Program-made: the position numbers and the translations under genes
In this document: positions 5,615 to 31,805 of the stretch, piece after piece
Position numbering within the stretch: the stretch's first letter is position 1
Layout of the letters: each line of letters begins with the position of its first letter
NCBI GenBank assembly: GCA_017479925.1
Contig: JAFVBP010000321.1
Span: 1 to 32,800, forward strand
DNA from: Selenomonadaceae bacterium
GTDB lineage: Bacteria; Bacillota; Negativicutes; Selenomonadales; Selenomonadaceae
Reading direction: 5' to 3'
DNA length: 32,800 bases
The notes under the pieces: generated by a model
Database searches by the model: none
The model's input: the letters and a program-made list of their open reading frames with translations, nothing else
What the model was told of the DNA's origin: nothing

Positions 5615-5640
5615 TAATGCGTAATGCGTAATGCGTAATG
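5615..5640. repeat. Heptamer repeat ATGCGTA (ATTACGC family)
   Basis: More than three tandem units of a 7 bp repeat in the ctsR-gmhB gap. The same heptamer recurs at 20608-20870 and 29524-29555. Confidence 0.85.
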
Positions 5641-5685
5641 ATTTCGTGCAGGAATTTGTTTGAACGTCGACGAATCAAGCCGCAA

Positions 5686-5800
5686 AAAATTTCGACGGAG
5701 GCAACGTGACGTTGCATCCAATTTGAAAAGCCGTTCGACAACCGTGGCTTGTCGCTTCGGTCAAACGGTATCAAAATTTTCGACGGAGGTTTAGTGTGAC
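5686..5800 (+). repeat. Possible decayed junction-element insertion upstream of gmhB
   Basis: The stretch TTTCGACGGAGG, including the ribosome site, occurs at 5690-5701 and again at 5778-5789, both followed within a few bases by GTGAC. Between them is CGTTGCATCCAATTT, similar to the inner part of the junction elements at 6325 and 17252. The palindromic end is not conserved. Confidence 0.35.
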
Positions 5801-6310
5801 ATGAACGCTGCGGTTTTCTTCGACAGGGACGGCGTCCTCAATCATGAAGTCGGCTACCTTTGGACGATTGACAAATTCGCGTGGATTGACGGCGCACGCG
5901 ACGCCATTAAACTTTGCAACGAACGCGGATTTTTGACCGTCGTCGTCACCAATCAAGGCGGCATTGCTCGCGGACTGTACACCGCCCGCGAAGTCGACGC
6001 GCTCCATGCCTTCATGCAGGAAAGTTTGTCTCAAGTCGGCGCACACATCGACGCGTTTTATTTTTGTCCGCATCACCCCGAAGGCGTCGTTGCCGAATTC
6101 GCCGTTGCCTGCGACTGTCGAAAGCCGAAACCCGGTCTGATTCTGTGGGCGTGCCGTGAGCTTGATATTGACCCGAAACGTTCGATTTTGTTCGGCGACA
6201 GTGAACGCGACATTGAGGCGGCACAAGCGGCGGGTCTTCGTGACGGAATTTTTTTCAACGGCGGAAATCTTCGCGACGCCGTCAAAATCAACTTGGAGAA
6301 ATTATCGTGA
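5801..6310 (+). CDS. gmhB: HAD-family D-glycero-D-manno-heptose-1,7-bisphosphate 7-phosphatase
   Basis: GmhB removes the 7-phosphate during synthesis of nucleotide-activated heptose for lipopolysaccharide or other surface glycans. HAD motifs are complete: FDRDGVLN (D8, D10), TNQGG at 50-54, RKPKPG near 107-112 and GDSERD at 132-137. The CPHHP...CDC loop (C89, H91, C104, C106) is the zinc site that marks GmhB and the related histidinol phosphatases. The 169 residues are a normal length. GGAGGT precedes the ATG. A GT9 heptosyltransferase lies 5.5 kb downstream, supporting the heptose role over histidinol phosphate. The stop codon lies inside a 31 bp duplicated junction. Confidence 0.85.
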   Translation: MNAAVFFDRDGVLNHEVGYLWTIDKFAWIDGARDAIKLCNERGFLTVVVTNQGGIARGLYTAREVDALHAFMQESLSQVGAHIDAFYFCPHHPEGVVAEFAVACDCRKPKPGLILWACRELDIDPKRSILFGDSERDIEAAQAAGLRDGIFFNGGNLRDAVKINLEKLS

Positions 6311-6413
6311 GCAATTTTATCGAAGCCGCTTTAAAAGCGGCGGAACAATTGGAGTGTAACGCCACGTTATCGTCACATCTGCTGGAGAAATTATCGTGAG
6401 CAATTTTATCGAA
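6294..6413 (-). mobile_element. Junction element R2 with 31 bp direct duplications
   Basis: Positions 6294-6324 and 6383-6413 are identical (31 bp). They enclose a 58 bp element, 6325-6382, that begins with GCCGCTTTAAAAGCGGC and contains GGAACAATTGGAGTGT. The duplicated bases carry the gmhB stop and the GTG start of the next gene, which in the undisturbed junction would overlap as GTGA. Both copies keep these signals, so both genes remain intact. The first copy leaves a 30-codon vestigial frame (6307-6399). Confidence 0.85.
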
Positions 6414-7316
6414 CTTGGCAAAAAAATTTACGACCTGAACAATCCGCGGGAGGCGCACCGTTTCGCCGTGTTCGTCGCACGCTGTTGTCTGCACCCGCAA
6501 CGCATGAGCCGCTTGGAAAAATTTTTCGCGCAGTCGGAGCTGTTTAAGCAAATCGCCGACGGCTACCCGTTTGTTTACGAACAGGCGACGCGGGCATTTT
6601 TTTACCACAAGTCGACGTTCGAGGAGCGGGCGCGGCTCGTCGAAGAAAACATGCAATTCCTTGCCGCACGCATGAACGATGACTTCATGCTCAAACTTTA
6701 CGGCGACAAAAAAATCGAACTGTGGCGCATGACGCTTGACGAAACGCTCGGCGACATGAATTTGGTTTTGTGCGCGGAATCCGGTCAACGCAAGGAAGGT
6801 CTCGCGGCGGTAATGTTCAACCTGCCCGGCGAAGTGCCCATGTATCAAATTTTGTTTTGGATTGCCCGCGACGAACTGATTAACCGCGACGGCTCGTGGG
6901 CAATGTGGATTGGCGCGATGCAAGGTCCCAACGTCGACGACGCCCGCGAACTCGTCAAGCGCATTACGAAGAAATGTCACGCTTACCGCACGAAGAATTT
7001 AATTTTGTACGCGGCTCAAGCAGTTGCGCGAAGTCTCGGCGTCGCGAAAATTTTTGCCGTCACGAATGCGGGCTATTACGCGAACAATCATCTTCGACGC
7101 GACAGAAAACTCAAGACTTCGTTCGGCGACTTTTGGGCGGAAGCGGGCGGACTTCCGACAGCTGACAAAAGATTTTTCGAGTTGCCGCTGACCGAAACGC
7201 GCAAGACCGTCGAAGAAATTCCGTCGCACAAACGGGCGCAATATCGGCGGCGATTCGCCCTGCTTGACGAACTTGACGCGTCGATTGCCGAAACTTTGCG
7301 GAGGTTTGAACGGTGA
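6396..7316 (+). CDS. VirK/YbjX family protein (DUF535)
   Basis: A 306-residue protein. The C-terminal two thirds carry the family hallmarks: GAMQGPN near residue 171, a KKCHAYRTKNLIL segment, FWAEAGG near 245, LPLTETRK, and EIPSHKRAQYRRRFALLDEL near the end. Family members are linked to envelope stress and surface modification in enterobacteria; the biochemical role is not established. The start is a GTG with GGAG ten bases upstream, inside the second copy of the 31 bp duplication. It ends in a GTGA overlap with the next glycosyltransferase, so the two are translationally coupled. Confidence 0.85.
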   Translation: MSNFIELGKKIYDLNNPREAHRFAVFVARCCLHPQRMSRLEKFFAQSELFKQIADGYPFVYEQATRAFFYHKSTFEERARLVEENMQFLAARMNDDFMLKLYGDKKIELWRMTLDETLGDMNLVLCAESGQRKEGLAAVMFNLPGEVPMYQILFWIARDELINRDGSWAMWIGAMQGPNVDDARELVKRITKKCHAYRTKNLILYAAQAVARSLGVAKIFAVTNAGYYANNHLRRDRKLKTSFGDFWAEAGGLPTADKRFFELPLTETRKTVEEIPSHKRAQYRRRFALLDELDASIAETLRRFER

Positions 7317-8581: not shown

Positions 8582-10411
8582 GTGGCTATGAAGGCCATGT
8601 ACAACGCGGGCGCACAACTGTCGCTCGGCGAACTCAACAAAAACATCACCAAGGCGGGCAAAGCTTTGGCGCGTGTCTCGTCGGGCATGAGGATTATCGG
8701 TGCACAGGACGACGACTCGGCAAGTTTCGCCATATCCGAAAAGATGCGCGAACAGATTCGCAGTCTCTTGCAGGACAACCAAAACGTTCAAAACGGCTCG
8801 TCGATGATCAAAGTTGCCGAACGTGGTATCGACCAAATTATTCAGTTGCTCGACCACATGAAACAGCTTGCCATTGACGCCGCCAACGACTCGAACACCG
8901 ACGAAGATCGCCGAACGTTGCAAAAGGAATTCGATTCGCGCATGTCGACGATTAACGACATTGTGATTGGCACGGAGTATAACGGCAAACGTTTGCTCGA
9001 CGGCACCCGGGCGAAACGGAAAATCACTTCGGCCGAAGGTGAAATAATTCCGCCCGAACGAATTCTTCACGGCGGCGAAACAATCCCTGAAGATGACGAA
9101 GGTGTTTACATGTTGGCAAGAGATTGCACGGGCACGATAACGGTCAACGCGCATAACATTAAATTCGTGCAGGAAGATCCGTCGACGCCGCTCAACAATG
9201 TCAAAATCATCAGCCCCGAAGACGGCAACGCGAACATGTGGATTAAAGACTTGAACATCACAAACACGAACGGGGAATCTGTCATAAGGTTTCGCGGCAC
9301 GGGCAACGTCTTGACTTTTGAAGGTTCTTCGGAACTGAAGCACAACTCTTCTCGTCCAACTGAGGCGATTGTTTATGTCGGCGAAGGTTTGACGCTCGAA
9401 GGTACAGGCAATTTGGCCGTCAAAGCTTACGGCTCTTCGATGACAAGCACAGCGATTGGAATTGACGCTTCCGAAAAGACGTACAGCGGGAGTTACGAAA
9501 GCATGAGGATTGACTCTTACATTACCGTCAACAGCGGCAACTATGACCTTTACGTCGAACGAGGCGGCGGCTGTATCGGCGGGGCGGACAACTCCTACTT
9601 TGTCGGCGACATAAAAATCGCGGGCGGTAACATCAAAGCTGTTGCCAATCACGGCTCGGCAATCGGTTGCGGCAGTTACGGCAGTCGTTACGATTTGGGT
9701 GATTGGCTTGACGGCACAATAACAATCGGCGACGGCGCAAACATCACTGCGAAAAGCACAAACGGCGCGGGTATCGGTGCAGGTTCGGAAGCAAGTTTGA
9801 CTGATCCCGGCTACGTCTACATAAGCGAACAAGCTCAAATCTCCGCCACGGGAGCCAAAACGTCGCAGTACACAGATCGTCAAAAAGAATTTTACTACGG
9901 ACAACGCGGCACAATAGTTGATGTCGAATTTCAAGACAGCATACCCGTTGAACGAAATCCTTCGGGTGTTGAAGACCCCGACGACTCCGAAACTTCGACG
10001 ACTGAACTTTACGAAGGCAATCCGCTTTGGATTCAGCACGGCACGCAATCGGGTCAACGAATTCACGTCTACATCAACAGCATGAGAACCGAAGCACTTG
10101 GGATTGACGACGCCGAAGTCATCACGCGGGACAAAGCTCTTGACGCTATCGCCAAAGTTGACGCCGCACTCGAATACGCGTTAAACGAGGCGACAACGCA
10201 AGGCGCGTACCTTCAACGGCTCGAATTCACCGACTCGAACGTCACAATCATGGGCGAAAACGTTCAGCAAGCCGAATCGACAATCCGCGACGCCGACATG
10301 GCTCGCGAAATGACCGAATACACGAAATACAACATCTTGACGCAGTCTTCGCAGGCAATGTTGGCTCAGGCGAATCAAAATCAGTCGTCTATACTCAGTC
10401 TGTTGCAGTAG
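8582..10411 (+). CDS. fliC: Flagellin with a large beta-rich variable domain
   Basis: The filament subunit, about 609 residues. A GTG at 8582 is preferred over one at 8573, since GGAGGTG covers the earlier codon and is well spaced to the later one. Residues 1-140 are the D0/D1 helical domain (LARVSSGMRI, SFAISEKMR, GTEYNGKRLLDGT). The last 95 residues are the matching C-terminal helix, ending NQNQSSILSLLQ. The central ~370 residues are unlike plain flagellins: glycine- and asparagine-rich segments such as CIGGADNS, SAIGCGSYGS and GAGIGAGSEA, separated by beta-like ITIGDGANITAK units, suggesting a surface-exposed beta-helix. It stands alone with no other flagellar gene, between glycosyltransferases, with its own terminator. 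Confidence 0.93.
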   Translation: MAMKAMYNAGAQLSLGELNKNITKAGKALARVSSGMRIIGAQDDDSASFAISEKMREQIRSLLQDNQNVQNGSSMIKVAERGIDQIIQLLDHMKQLAIDAANDSNTDEDRRTLQKEFDSRMSTINDIVIGTEYNGKRLLDGTRAKRKITSAEGEIIPPERILHGGETIPEDDEGVYMLARDCTGTITVNAHNIKFVQEDPSTPLNNVKIISPEDGNANMWIKDLNITNTNGESVIRFRGTGNVLTFEGSSELKHNSSRPTEAIVYVGEGLTLEGTGNLAVKAYGSSMTSTAIGIDASEKTYSGSYESMRIDSYITVNSGNYDLYVERGGGCIGGADNSYFVGDIKIAGGNIKAVANHGSAIGCGSYGSRYDLGDWLDGTITIGDGANITAKSTNGAGIGAGSEASLTDPGYVYISEQAQISATGAKTSQYTDRQKEFYYGQRGTIVDVEFQDSIPVERNPSGVEDPDDSETSTTELYEGNPLWIQHGTQSGQRIHVYINSMRTEALGIDDAEVITRDKALDAIAKVDAALEYALNEATTQGAYLQRLEFTDSNVTIMGENVQQAESTIRDADMAREMTEYTKYNILTQSSQAMLAQANQNQSSILSLLQ

Positions 10412-10512
10412 AAAATTCGTCGAAATGAACGACCGAAAAATTCGGTCGGCACCAACTGTTCCGCCGCTTTTAAAGCGGATCGTCAATCTTGAGTTTGTTG
10501 CAATAAGAAATT
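10397..10512 (+). mobile_element. Junction element R3 with diverged flanking duplication
   Basis: The element core AACTGTTCCGCCGC with its palindrome lies at 10454-10478. The end of the flagellin gene including its stop (10397-10417) is repeated at 10492-10512 with four mismatches in 21 bases, keeping a stop codon (TAG versus TAA). This looks like an older version of the duplications at 6294 and 17200. Confidence 0.65.
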
Positions 10513-15458: not shown

Positions 15459-17252
15459 ATGAACGACAAAAAAATTTTCGACGCGTGGGCGGAAAAAAAT
15501 CTTTGCGACGACGACCAACGCCACCTTGCCGAAGCGTGCGGAGTTTTCGAGCTTGTCGGCGCGGAAGTTCAAGCCGAAGAAGTTTTGACTACGGGCAATT
15601 CGTTCTTCGACAAAAATTTTTTCGGCACGCGGGTTTTGGTACTTGCGCCGCACCCCGACGACGAAATTAACATTGCCGGCAACATGATTTTGACTTTGGC
15701 GACCGCCAAGGCTGAAATTTTCGTTGCGTATTCGACCAACGGCGATTTTGAGCAGTCGGCGAACGTTCGCGCCCGTGAAGCCGTCGACGCGCTGAAAATT
15801 TTGGGCGTGCCCCGCGACAAGATAATTTTTTTCGGCTACGGCGACGGTCACAAACTTTCCGACGTGCCGACGACTTCGCCCGCAGGCTTTTCGGAGACTT
15901 ACGCGGCGGACGATTTTGTCGATTACGCGAAAAAAACTTTCGGACGCCACAGCACGTATACCCGCGACAACTTCAAGCGCGACCTGAAGACGTTGTTGCT
16001 TGAACTTCGGGCGAACATAATTTTTTGCGTCGACTTCGACAGTCACCCCGATCACCGCACGCTGTCGATTTTGTTCGAGGAAGTCATGGGCGAAATTTTG
16101 TCCGAACGCCGCGATTATCGTCCCGAAATATATAAAAAATTCGCGTACTCGACGGCTTTCACTGCCGCGCCCGATTTTTACGCACAAAATCTGCTTGCGA
16201 CGCGAAAACCCAAAGTCGGCGAAACCGACACGTACGATTTCGACTTGATTGACCGCGCAAATTACGTTTGGGCGGACAGAATTCGCTTCCCCGTGCCCGA
16301 AAATTGCCGTCGAACGACCTTGAAGGACAATCCGCTTGCCGAGGCGATTTTTGCGCACAAATCTCAACGCAACCAGTGGAATGCGCTTCGGATTTTGAAT
16401 TCCGACGAGATTTTTTTCGAGCGACGCACCGACAACGAAACTTTTGCCGCGAAAGTAACGGCGACTTCGGGCGACGCGTCAAAAGTTCGCGACTTCAAAA
16501 TCATCGACACCGCCGACGTTGAAATTTCGCCCGCGCAGTTTGCGAATAATTTATGGCAACCGTCGCCCGACGACATGCACAAGAAAATTTTTTTCGAGTG
16601 GAACGAGCCGGCGCAAGTTCAACGCGTCGCGATTTACGGCAACCCGCTTGACGAGGATACGGCGGAACTGCTTTTGCGGCTTGAACTTGCAAATAAGTTC
16701 GCCGTGATTGACAAGGCGCGAATTTCTTCGGATAATGTCAAAAATTTCCGCGTCACGTTGCCGAATCACGGTCGCCCGCTGATTTTGGACACGGAAAAAT
16801 TTTTCGTCACGCGTGCGGAAATTTCCGTTATCAACGCGGGCAAAAATTTCGGGCTGTCGGAAGTCGAATTTTTCGCGAACGCCGAGCCGCTCAAGAAAAT
16901 TCCGCCGTTCGTCAAGCTGACCGTCGACGAAAATTTTTTCTACCGATACGCGTTGCCGTGGGAAGTCGAAAAAATTTCGCTGGGGCTTTACCGCTTTCAC
17001 GTTGATGCGCCCGTGAAAATTTCCGCGACGGCGGGCGACGAAGTCATTTTGTCGGAAGTTGTTACGAACGAAGAATTAATTTTGAATTTCGGCGACGCAA
17101 GCGAAGTTGTCGTTACGGCTGAAGTCGTCGGCACGGACATTTATGACCGCGCAATAATTCGCCGCGTCGGAGATTTCGCGCAGATTCAGCTGAAAGTTTG
17201 GCAGTGGCTCGACAAGCTCCGCGTTCACAAAGTCCGAAAGCTCAACAGGTAG
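15459..17252 (+). CDS. PIG-L family deacetylase with C-terminal beta-rich extension
   Basis: About 597 residues. The N-terminal LmbE/PIG-L domain has LAPHPDDE near residue 65 and a DSHPDH motif near 195, the zinc-binding set of N-acetylglucosamine deacetylases. The C-terminal half (from about 330) is beta-rich and non-catalytic, with a segment around VQRVAIYGNPLDED like discoidin (F5/8 C)-type carbohydrate-binding modules; that reading is tentative. The start is uncertain: a GTG at 15450 is also in frame and neither site has a strong ribosome site. It may trim an N-acetyl sugar of the glycan built here. Its last 52 bases, up to the first two bases of the stop codon, are duplicated downstream. 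Confidence 0.8.
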   Translation: MNDKKIFDAWAEKNLCDDDQRHLAEACGVFELVGAEVQAEEVLTTGNSFFDKNFFGTRVLVLAPHPDDEINIAGNMILTLATAKAEIFVAYSTNGDFEQSANVRAREAVDALKILGVPRDKIIFFGYGDGHKLSDVPTTSPAGFSETYAADDFVDYAKKTFGRHSTYTRDNFKRDLKTLLLELRANIIFCVDFDSHPDHRTLSILFEEVMGEILSERRDYRPEIYKKFAYSTAFTAAPDFYAQNLLATRKPKVGETDTYDFDLIDRANYVWADRIRFPVPENCRRTTLKDNPLAEAIFAHKSQRNQWNALRILNSDEIFFERRTDNETFAAKVTATSGDASKVRDFKIIDTADVEISPAQFANNLWQPSPDDMHKKIFFEWNEPAQVQRVAIYGNPLDEDTAELLLRLELANKFAVIDKARISSDNVKNFRVTLPNHGRPLILDTEKFFVTRAEISVINAGKNFGLSEVEFFANAEPLKKIPPFVKLTVDENFFYRYALPWEVEKISLGLYRFHVDAPVKISATAGDEVILSEVVTNEELILNFGDASEVVVTAEVVGTDIYDRAIIRRVGDFAQIQLKVWQWLDKLRVHKVRKLNR

Positions 17253-17384
17253 CAATTTCGCCGCGGCGACAACGCTTGAACGTCGACAACGTTGCAGATA
17301 ACTCCAATTGTTCCGCCACTTTCAAAGTGGCCGGCAGTGGCTCGACAAGCTCCGCGTTCACAAAGTCCGAAAGCTCAACAGGTA
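17200..17384 (+). mobile_element. Junction element R4 with 52 bp direct duplications
   Basis: Positions 17200-17251 and 17333-17384 are identical (52 bp) and enclose an 81 bp element (17252-17332) ending in AATTGTTCCGCCACTTTC plus its inverted half. The duplicated bases encode the C terminus of the deacetylase and reach into its stop codon. The first copy ends in TAG, formed with the element's first base, and the second in TAA. The second copy carries the original junction with the next gene. Confidence 0.85.
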
Positions 17385-20556: not shown

Positions 20557-20880
20557 AATCGTCCCAATCGGGGCGATTTTTTTTGTGATAACGACGCGTT
20601 CAATTACGCATTTCGCATTATGCATTACGCATTAATAATCGTCCCAATCGGGGCGATTTTTTTTGTGATAACGACGCGTTCAATTACGCATTACGCATTA
20701 TGCATTACGCATTAATAATCGTCCCAAGCGGGGCGATTTTTTTTGCGGCGTCGCGTTCAATTATGCATTACGCATTATGCATTACGCATTAATAATCGTC
20801 CCAAGCGGGGCGATTTTTTTTTGTGATAACGTCGCTTTCAATTACGCATTTCGCATTACGCATTACGCATTAATAATTGT
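20557..20880. repeat. Tandem array of ~80 bp terminator units
   Basis: The 320 bp between convergent genes hold four units beginning at GTCCCA 20561, 20641, 20721 and 20798, with a fifth partial start at 20879 inside the next gene. Each has a hairpin ATCGTCCC/GGGGCGAT followed by eight or nine Ts, then (except a shortened third unit) GTGATAACG, and a run of ATTACGC/ATTATGC heptamers ending ATTAATAAT. The hairpin T-runs face the plus strand, so it terminates rnc four times over. Confidence 0.9.
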
Positions 20881-30726: not shown

Positions 30727-30729
30727 CCA

Positions 30730-30785
30730 AATTGTTCCGCCACTTTTAAAGTGGCTCCTCGTCAACGTGGCGGGGATTTTTTTTT
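30730..30785 (+). terminator. Junction element R5 serving as terminator
   Basis: AATTGTTCCGCCAC with its palindrome (30730-30755), then GTGGCGG (30767-30773) that can pair with CCGCCAC (30737-30743), followed by about nine Ts. Two alternative hairpins are therefore possible. No flanking duplication was seen. Confidence 0.7.
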
Positions 30786-31674: not shown

Positions 31675-31805
31675 AGTAATTCCTCCGAATCAAAGTTGAA
31701 TATACGTTCGTTCGCGGCGACAACGTTACGGCTGTCGGCAACGTTAATCGCGACAGCTGTTCCGCCGCTTTTAAAGCGGCTGTCGTCCACGTCACACCTC
31801 CGGAT
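31666..31805 (-). mobile_element. Junction element R6 with diverged flanking duplication
   Basis: Core AGCTGTTCCGCCGC plus palindrome at 31755-31780, preceded by CGGCGACAACGTT as in R4. The flanks at 31666-31690 and 31782-31805 match at about 19 of 24 positions, including the CCTCCG ribosome-site complement and GTCGTCCA, the start-codon region. The outer copy still carries a GTG start preceded by GGAGGTG that now leads nowhere. Confidence 0.6.

Follow-up and report, generated by a model that had tools for sequence, protein, structure and literature searches.

A dispersed hairpin element of Quinella associated with long target duplications of variable length

Insertion between gmhB and the DUF535 gene

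The window, i.e. the whole 32,800-nucleotide stretch of DNA analyzed here, derives from a Selenomonadaceae bacterium (GCA_017479925.1, contig JAFVBP010000321.1, positions 1 to 32,800), and its genome relatives place it in Quinella, a rumen genus of the Selenomonadaceae. An intact gene for a gmhB-like HAD hydrolase (5801–6310, + strand) is followed by an intact DUF535 (PF04393) gene (6396–7316, +), and at their junction lie two identical 31-nt copies, at 6294–6324 and 6383–6413 (both +), which are spaced by 89 nt and enclose 58 nt. The earlier note had described identical 31-bp repeats around a 58-bp palindrome-bearing element here, and its coordinates were confirmed exactly.

The 58-nt insert consists of a 17-nt hairpin, the conserved GGAACAATTGG and a 30-nt tail. 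The hairpin, GCCGCTTTAAAAGCGGC (6325–6341, +), which has a 7-bp stem, opens the insert in direct contact with the left 31-bp copy and represents the fixed end of the element. It is followed by GGAACAATTGG at 6342–6352 (+) and by the variable tail at 6353–6382 (+), whose likeness to other copies stops near TATCGTCA and whose final nucleotides are unique. The RNA fold of the insert was calculated at -18.8 kcal/mol (z -2.3).

The duplicated target sequence (hereafter, X), here 31 bp long, includes the gmhB stop together with the following gene's start. The left copy contains the stop codon at 6308–6310 and an overlapping GTG at 6307–6309; in the right copy, the DUF535 gene starts with GTG at 6396. 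The claim that the duplicated bases hold both signals was thus borne out by the gene coordinates. In the following gene pair, a GTGA overlap is still present at 7313. In addition, the 89-bp unit gives rise to a 30-codon ORF (6307–6399, +), which opens at the duplicated GTG, closes at the duplicated TGA and has GTGA overlaps at both ends. This ORF may maintain translational coupling, and its fitting length could be luck.

In four congeners, the same two genes overlap, with a single 31-bp copy and no element, which indicates that the element is a real insertion. Because the family core occurs at 172 places in this genome, compared with none for the reversed-pattern control, and because these four empty sites exist, the combination of 31-bp repeat and hairpin is not attributable to chance.

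Distribution and anatomy of the family

The element is a dispersed family in Quinella. About 170 dispersed copies were counted, compared with 0–1 in controls, and the copy counts in 65 Quinella congeners ranged from 0 to 106, with about half of these genomes at zero; the high-copy genomes are this one (G000), G010, G021, G078 and G051. Nine genomes from other genera of the same class lacked the family core. The element had no match in viral, phage and plasmid collections, and a phage, plasmid or viral origin was rejected on this basis; identity with an Rfam RNA was likewise rejected, since no Rfam family matched. In the literature, no description of the hairpin family was found, the Quinella genome paper being silent on repeats, and a duplication of highly variable length (about 12 to 145 bases) was found reported for no known bacterial mobile element.

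Further members lie on the − strand of the window. The second member, at 17252–17332 with the hairpin foot near 17332, is bounded by a 52-bp duplication (52/52 identical), of which the copy distal to the hairpin is at 17200–17251 and the hairpin-side copy at 17333–17384; congeners have single-copy sites. An older member at 10418–10479 has a decayed duplication (25/33) at 10385–10417 and 10480–10512. No duplication was detectable for the family cores at 2882–2909 and 30728–30755, or for a diverged core at 31753–31780.

Related hairpin units were also observed. Just upstream of gmhB, at 5701–5772 (+), lies an element whose hairpin differs (GCAACGTGACGTTGC, followed by ATCCAATTTG); its 16-nt duplication (15/16), at 5685–5700 and 5773–5788, repeats the gmhB ribosome-binding region (TTTCGACGGAG). 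This second hairpin (GCAACGTGACGTTGC, then ATCCAATT) has tails similar to those of the first, and several of its copies (L083, L117, L105 and window 5685–5788) exhibited the same anchored duplication. A longer repeat of ~200 nt, with CTTTTCTTTTGG and CCAAAAGAAAAC as its frame, links hairpin 1 (CCCGCTTTAAAAGCGGG) with hairpin 2 in inverted orientation; this REPIN-like composite was seen at L072, L074, L084, L103, L106 and other loci, often at contig ends. A third hairpin type (CCACTTTTAAAAAGTGG, then ACAAACAGTTG) was seen at L294/L306 of genome G078, inserted at the start of an ABC-transporter gene, which is apparently duplicated. Other short repeats, GCGTAATGCGTAATGC, were noted at window 5617–5640 and about 20614–20860, both as tandem and as scattered copies across the genome.

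The junction at the hairpin end is exact, the left gap being 0 for most copies. At this junction the target has C at -2 in 29 of 41 copies and a purine at -1 in 36 of 41, T at -1 never occurring, and A/T-rich sequence lies beyond these C-R bases; the start of X showed no clear motif. Across 107 copies, the hairpin stem exhibited covariation at pair 1 (G-C/C-G), pair 2 (C-G/T-A) and pair 4 (G-C/A-T). Since the stem pairs change together on both sides, the folded strand matters.

The far end, on the other hand, is variable, with 50 nt to over 100 nt ahead of X. Judged from sequence resemblance, certain tails seem to be longer ones cut short: the final 17 nt of L084 are an exact match (17/17) to part of the longer L072 tails. 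A TCGCCGCG block is common to the longer copies and clusters near nt 66–70 (27/73), compared with 14/73 anywhere in a same-sized downstream window as the control. The right X may be separated from the conserved 3' block by 0–60 nt of filler. Outside the L132 array, the filler did not match the left flank convincingly, and it was for this reason rejected as part of the target duplication. A source place for it was not found in 909 kb (about a third) of the genome, so that its origin as transduced donor flank remains undecided.

Target duplications, empty sites and neighboring genes

The two flanks of 73 short copies were aligned with each other, the left one being anchored at the foot of the hairpin, and left-right swaps between copies served as the control. 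Anchored duplications exceeded the 95th percentile of the swapped-flank controls in 33 of the 73 copies (3.65 expected) and the 99th percentile in 26 (0.73 expected). Among congener copies, the corresponding fractions were 21/44 and 19/44. X was 12 to 145 bp long, and these loci also emerged, among many ordinary coding repeats, when direct repeats lying close together were sought without a pattern. About half of the copies had no detectable duplication, and for one copy (L105-2660) the comparison suggests a duplication of only about 3–5 bp. Coincidence could account for a few short X matches that consist of terminator-like sequence (AAAAATCCCGCCGA).

The joined flanks of twelve copies were compared with eight congeners. 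Empty sites with exactly one X were found for L078 (145 bp), L080 (41 bp; in G021, G022 and G016), L081 (30 bp), L113 (34 bp) and the window copy at 17252 (52 bp). L104 yielded a near-empty site, with a gap of 43 or 46 in three genomes versus 46 here, and longer versions in others. In G010, the insertion point of the 17252 copy is occupied by an insertion whose tail is different, and this may therefore be a preferred site. A different repeat (TTTAAGCTTTGAGC...) was observed near this site at L279 and L286 (G016, G078), again in a gene-end region, suggesting that the site is tolerant of insertions. Tandem arrays of the form X-E-X-E-X were seen at L105, L123, L132 and L125, as expected from unequal exchange between long duplications.

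These results make mobility with a long, variable duplication nearly certain. The two checks proposed in the earlier note, on related genomes and on other copies in the genome, both supported its inference of an unrecognized small mobile repeat: the element-free relatives L200, L202, L212 and L222 keep the 31 bp once, many other copies have anchored flanking duplications, and single-copy empty sites exist at further loci.

The earlier note had also held that insertion spares both neighboring genes. This applies to the 6294 site and several others. At 17200–17384, each X copy carries the last 17 codons and a stop of the upstream gene by our reading, and at L104 a start codon lies inside X. At L294 (G078), an ABC-transporter gene appears to have had its start invaded and duplicated by a relative of the element. 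Sparing of both genes apparently does not extend to L081, where, again by our reading, the insertion seems to replace a short C-terminus. At L193 of a congener, the filler beside the right X contains a GAGG resembling a Shine-Dalgarno sequence and an ATG whose frame continues into the sequence downstream, as though a gene start had been replaced. Survival of both genes was common among the cases read, without a genome-wide count, and probably reflects selection rather than targeting.

Insertion mechanism and alternative explanations

New copies insert flush against the hairpin at C-purine targets, with a target duplication of variable length beyond the variable end. The fixed hairpin end, the C-R target, and the variable far end with its duplication fit the geometry of target-primed copying. 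The most economical reading is a non-autonomous Quinella element of ~50–70 nt with one defined end, the terminal hairpin followed by GGAACA[A/G]TT, that inserts by a one-ended, target-primed route through an unidentified enzyme. We regard this joint reading of structure and route as probable, the mechanism being inferred. A break after C-R would expose a 3' end for joining to the hairpin end of an element copy, or for extension along it. The far end, still free, would then be healed to the complementary strand some 12–145 nt upstream, and fill-in would produce the second target copy. At gene ends, a long duplication could bring a start or stop codon along, which would allow tight-operon insertions to survive. 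This order of strand events comes from geometry alone. Only tentatively, we advance the possibility of a SINE counterpart in bacteria, or of some other wholly new class: a hairpin-ended element spread by target-primed copying, with one defined end, random second-strand resolution and an enzyme outside the known bacterial RT, HUH, DDE and Cas1 families.

Known candidate enzymes were not found. RVT_1 was absent from this genome (G000, 98.8% complete) and from G010, G021, G078 and G016; Y1_Tnp (PF01797) had 0 matches in this genome and G010 and none in most congeners tested; Ku was detected in none of the 66 genomes, with B. subtilis detected as the positive control; and Cas1, the integrase that CRISPR/casposon-type integration needs, was absent from six Quinella genomes (G000, G010, G021, G078, G051 and G016). 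RT, Y1, Ku and Cas1 were rejected as the driver, as none was found in this genome. An amplified autonomous partner gene was not found either, no ORF family being present in three or more genome pieces (3,169 ORFs, 909 kb), although the assembly may have collapsed repeats. Since this genome is a fragmented MAG, a collapsed multi-copy enzyme gene could be missing.

The absence of candidate enzymes is compatible with a repair accident, in which replication gaps or breaks capture hairpin pieces that were excised as single strands, and upstream template switching duplicates the target without a dedicated enzyme. The variable duplication, far end and filler do resemble template-switch or end-joining products. 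However, the junction is exact at the hairpin foot with C-R preferred, and the copy number varies from 0 to about 170 between congeners, so that we consider this explanation doubtful, if still open to consideration. The lack of Ku in all 66 genomes makes end joining that depends on it unlikely. The duplication-coupled repair offered as an alternative in the earlier note is accordingly weakened in that form, and is not excluded for the healing of the free end.

Hairpin covariation, a dinucleotide target directly 5' of the hairpin, and composite units with two inverted hairpins would suit a one-ended HUH-type single-strand transposase that recognizes the hairpin and CAATT, with two-ended units inserted without duplication and single-ended ones healed with it. 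REP/REPIN sequences mobilized with RAYT (Y1) are similar in their short hairpins, high copy number, single and inverted composite forms and stem variation. The Quinella element differs from them in its long duplications, in a genome without Y1_Tnp, the only HUH family searched, and in lacking the GTAG/CGTC tag at the hairpin foot, where the abutting target mostly ends in CG, CA or GA. IS200/IS605 elements make no larger target duplications (PMC2817692). This and the absence of Y1_Tnp from this genome, G010 and most congeners tested speak against an HUH-type route, which we consider unlikely.

A SINE-like retroposon would arise if reverse transcription primed at the C-R nick copied an RNA with the hairpin at its 3' end (in the reverse-complement orientation), the extent of 5' truncation being variable and the second nick falling at random. 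The Quinella element has in common with SINEs and other target-primed retroposons a constant structured end, a truncated other end, variable duplications and a specific first nick. In contrast, SINEs are eukaryotic and need a reverse transcriptase, none of which was found in this Quinella genome, and many RT-bearing congeners have no or few copies. An RNA intermediate is hypothetical, without transcript data, and we judge this route distinctly unlikely.

An ordinary DDE-type MITE with a misjudged far end would account for a small, dispersed, hairpin-bearing unit with duplicated targets, and the bacterial MITEs (Correia/NEMIS, RUP, ERIC) are likewise non-autonomous, dispersed and in many cases intergenic. 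DDE-type transposases, however, cut with a short fixed stagger, and the MITEs' duplications are short and fixed, whereas those found here are long and variable (12–145 bp), several being confirmed by empty sites. The Quinella element also has only one hairpin end, without terminal inverted repeats or TA ends, and its far end has no matching inverted repeat. This explanation is very improbable. Plain tandem duplication or chance around an immobile hairpin, which the tandem arrays at some loci might recall, is hardly credible in view of the dispersed copies and the swapped-flank controls, and tandem duplication is refuted by empty sites that lack both the hairpin and the second copy.

The nearest precedent for the Quinella element is YPAL/RU-2 of Yersinia, also a small non-coding palindromic repeat with target duplications of variable length, at 3–26 bp (PMC2229807). 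According to the literature, no sequence having been compared, YPAL is 168 bp long, has internal inverted repeats and inserts next to or across dyads, whereas the Quinella element is 50–70 nt long, with a terminal hairpin, a C-R target, duplications of up to 145 bp and a variable far end.

To our knowledge, the signature of one exact hairpin end, one variable end and a duplication of 12 to 145 bp fits no known bacterial transposition mechanism. These genomes must therefore have an unidentified enzyme or a non-enzymatic route at work. Owing to its long duplication, the element can enter overlapping operon genes while breaking neither, and the direct repeats left behind are able to seed tandem arrays. 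The patchy distribution over 66 related genomes makes the hunt for the responsible gene directly feasible.
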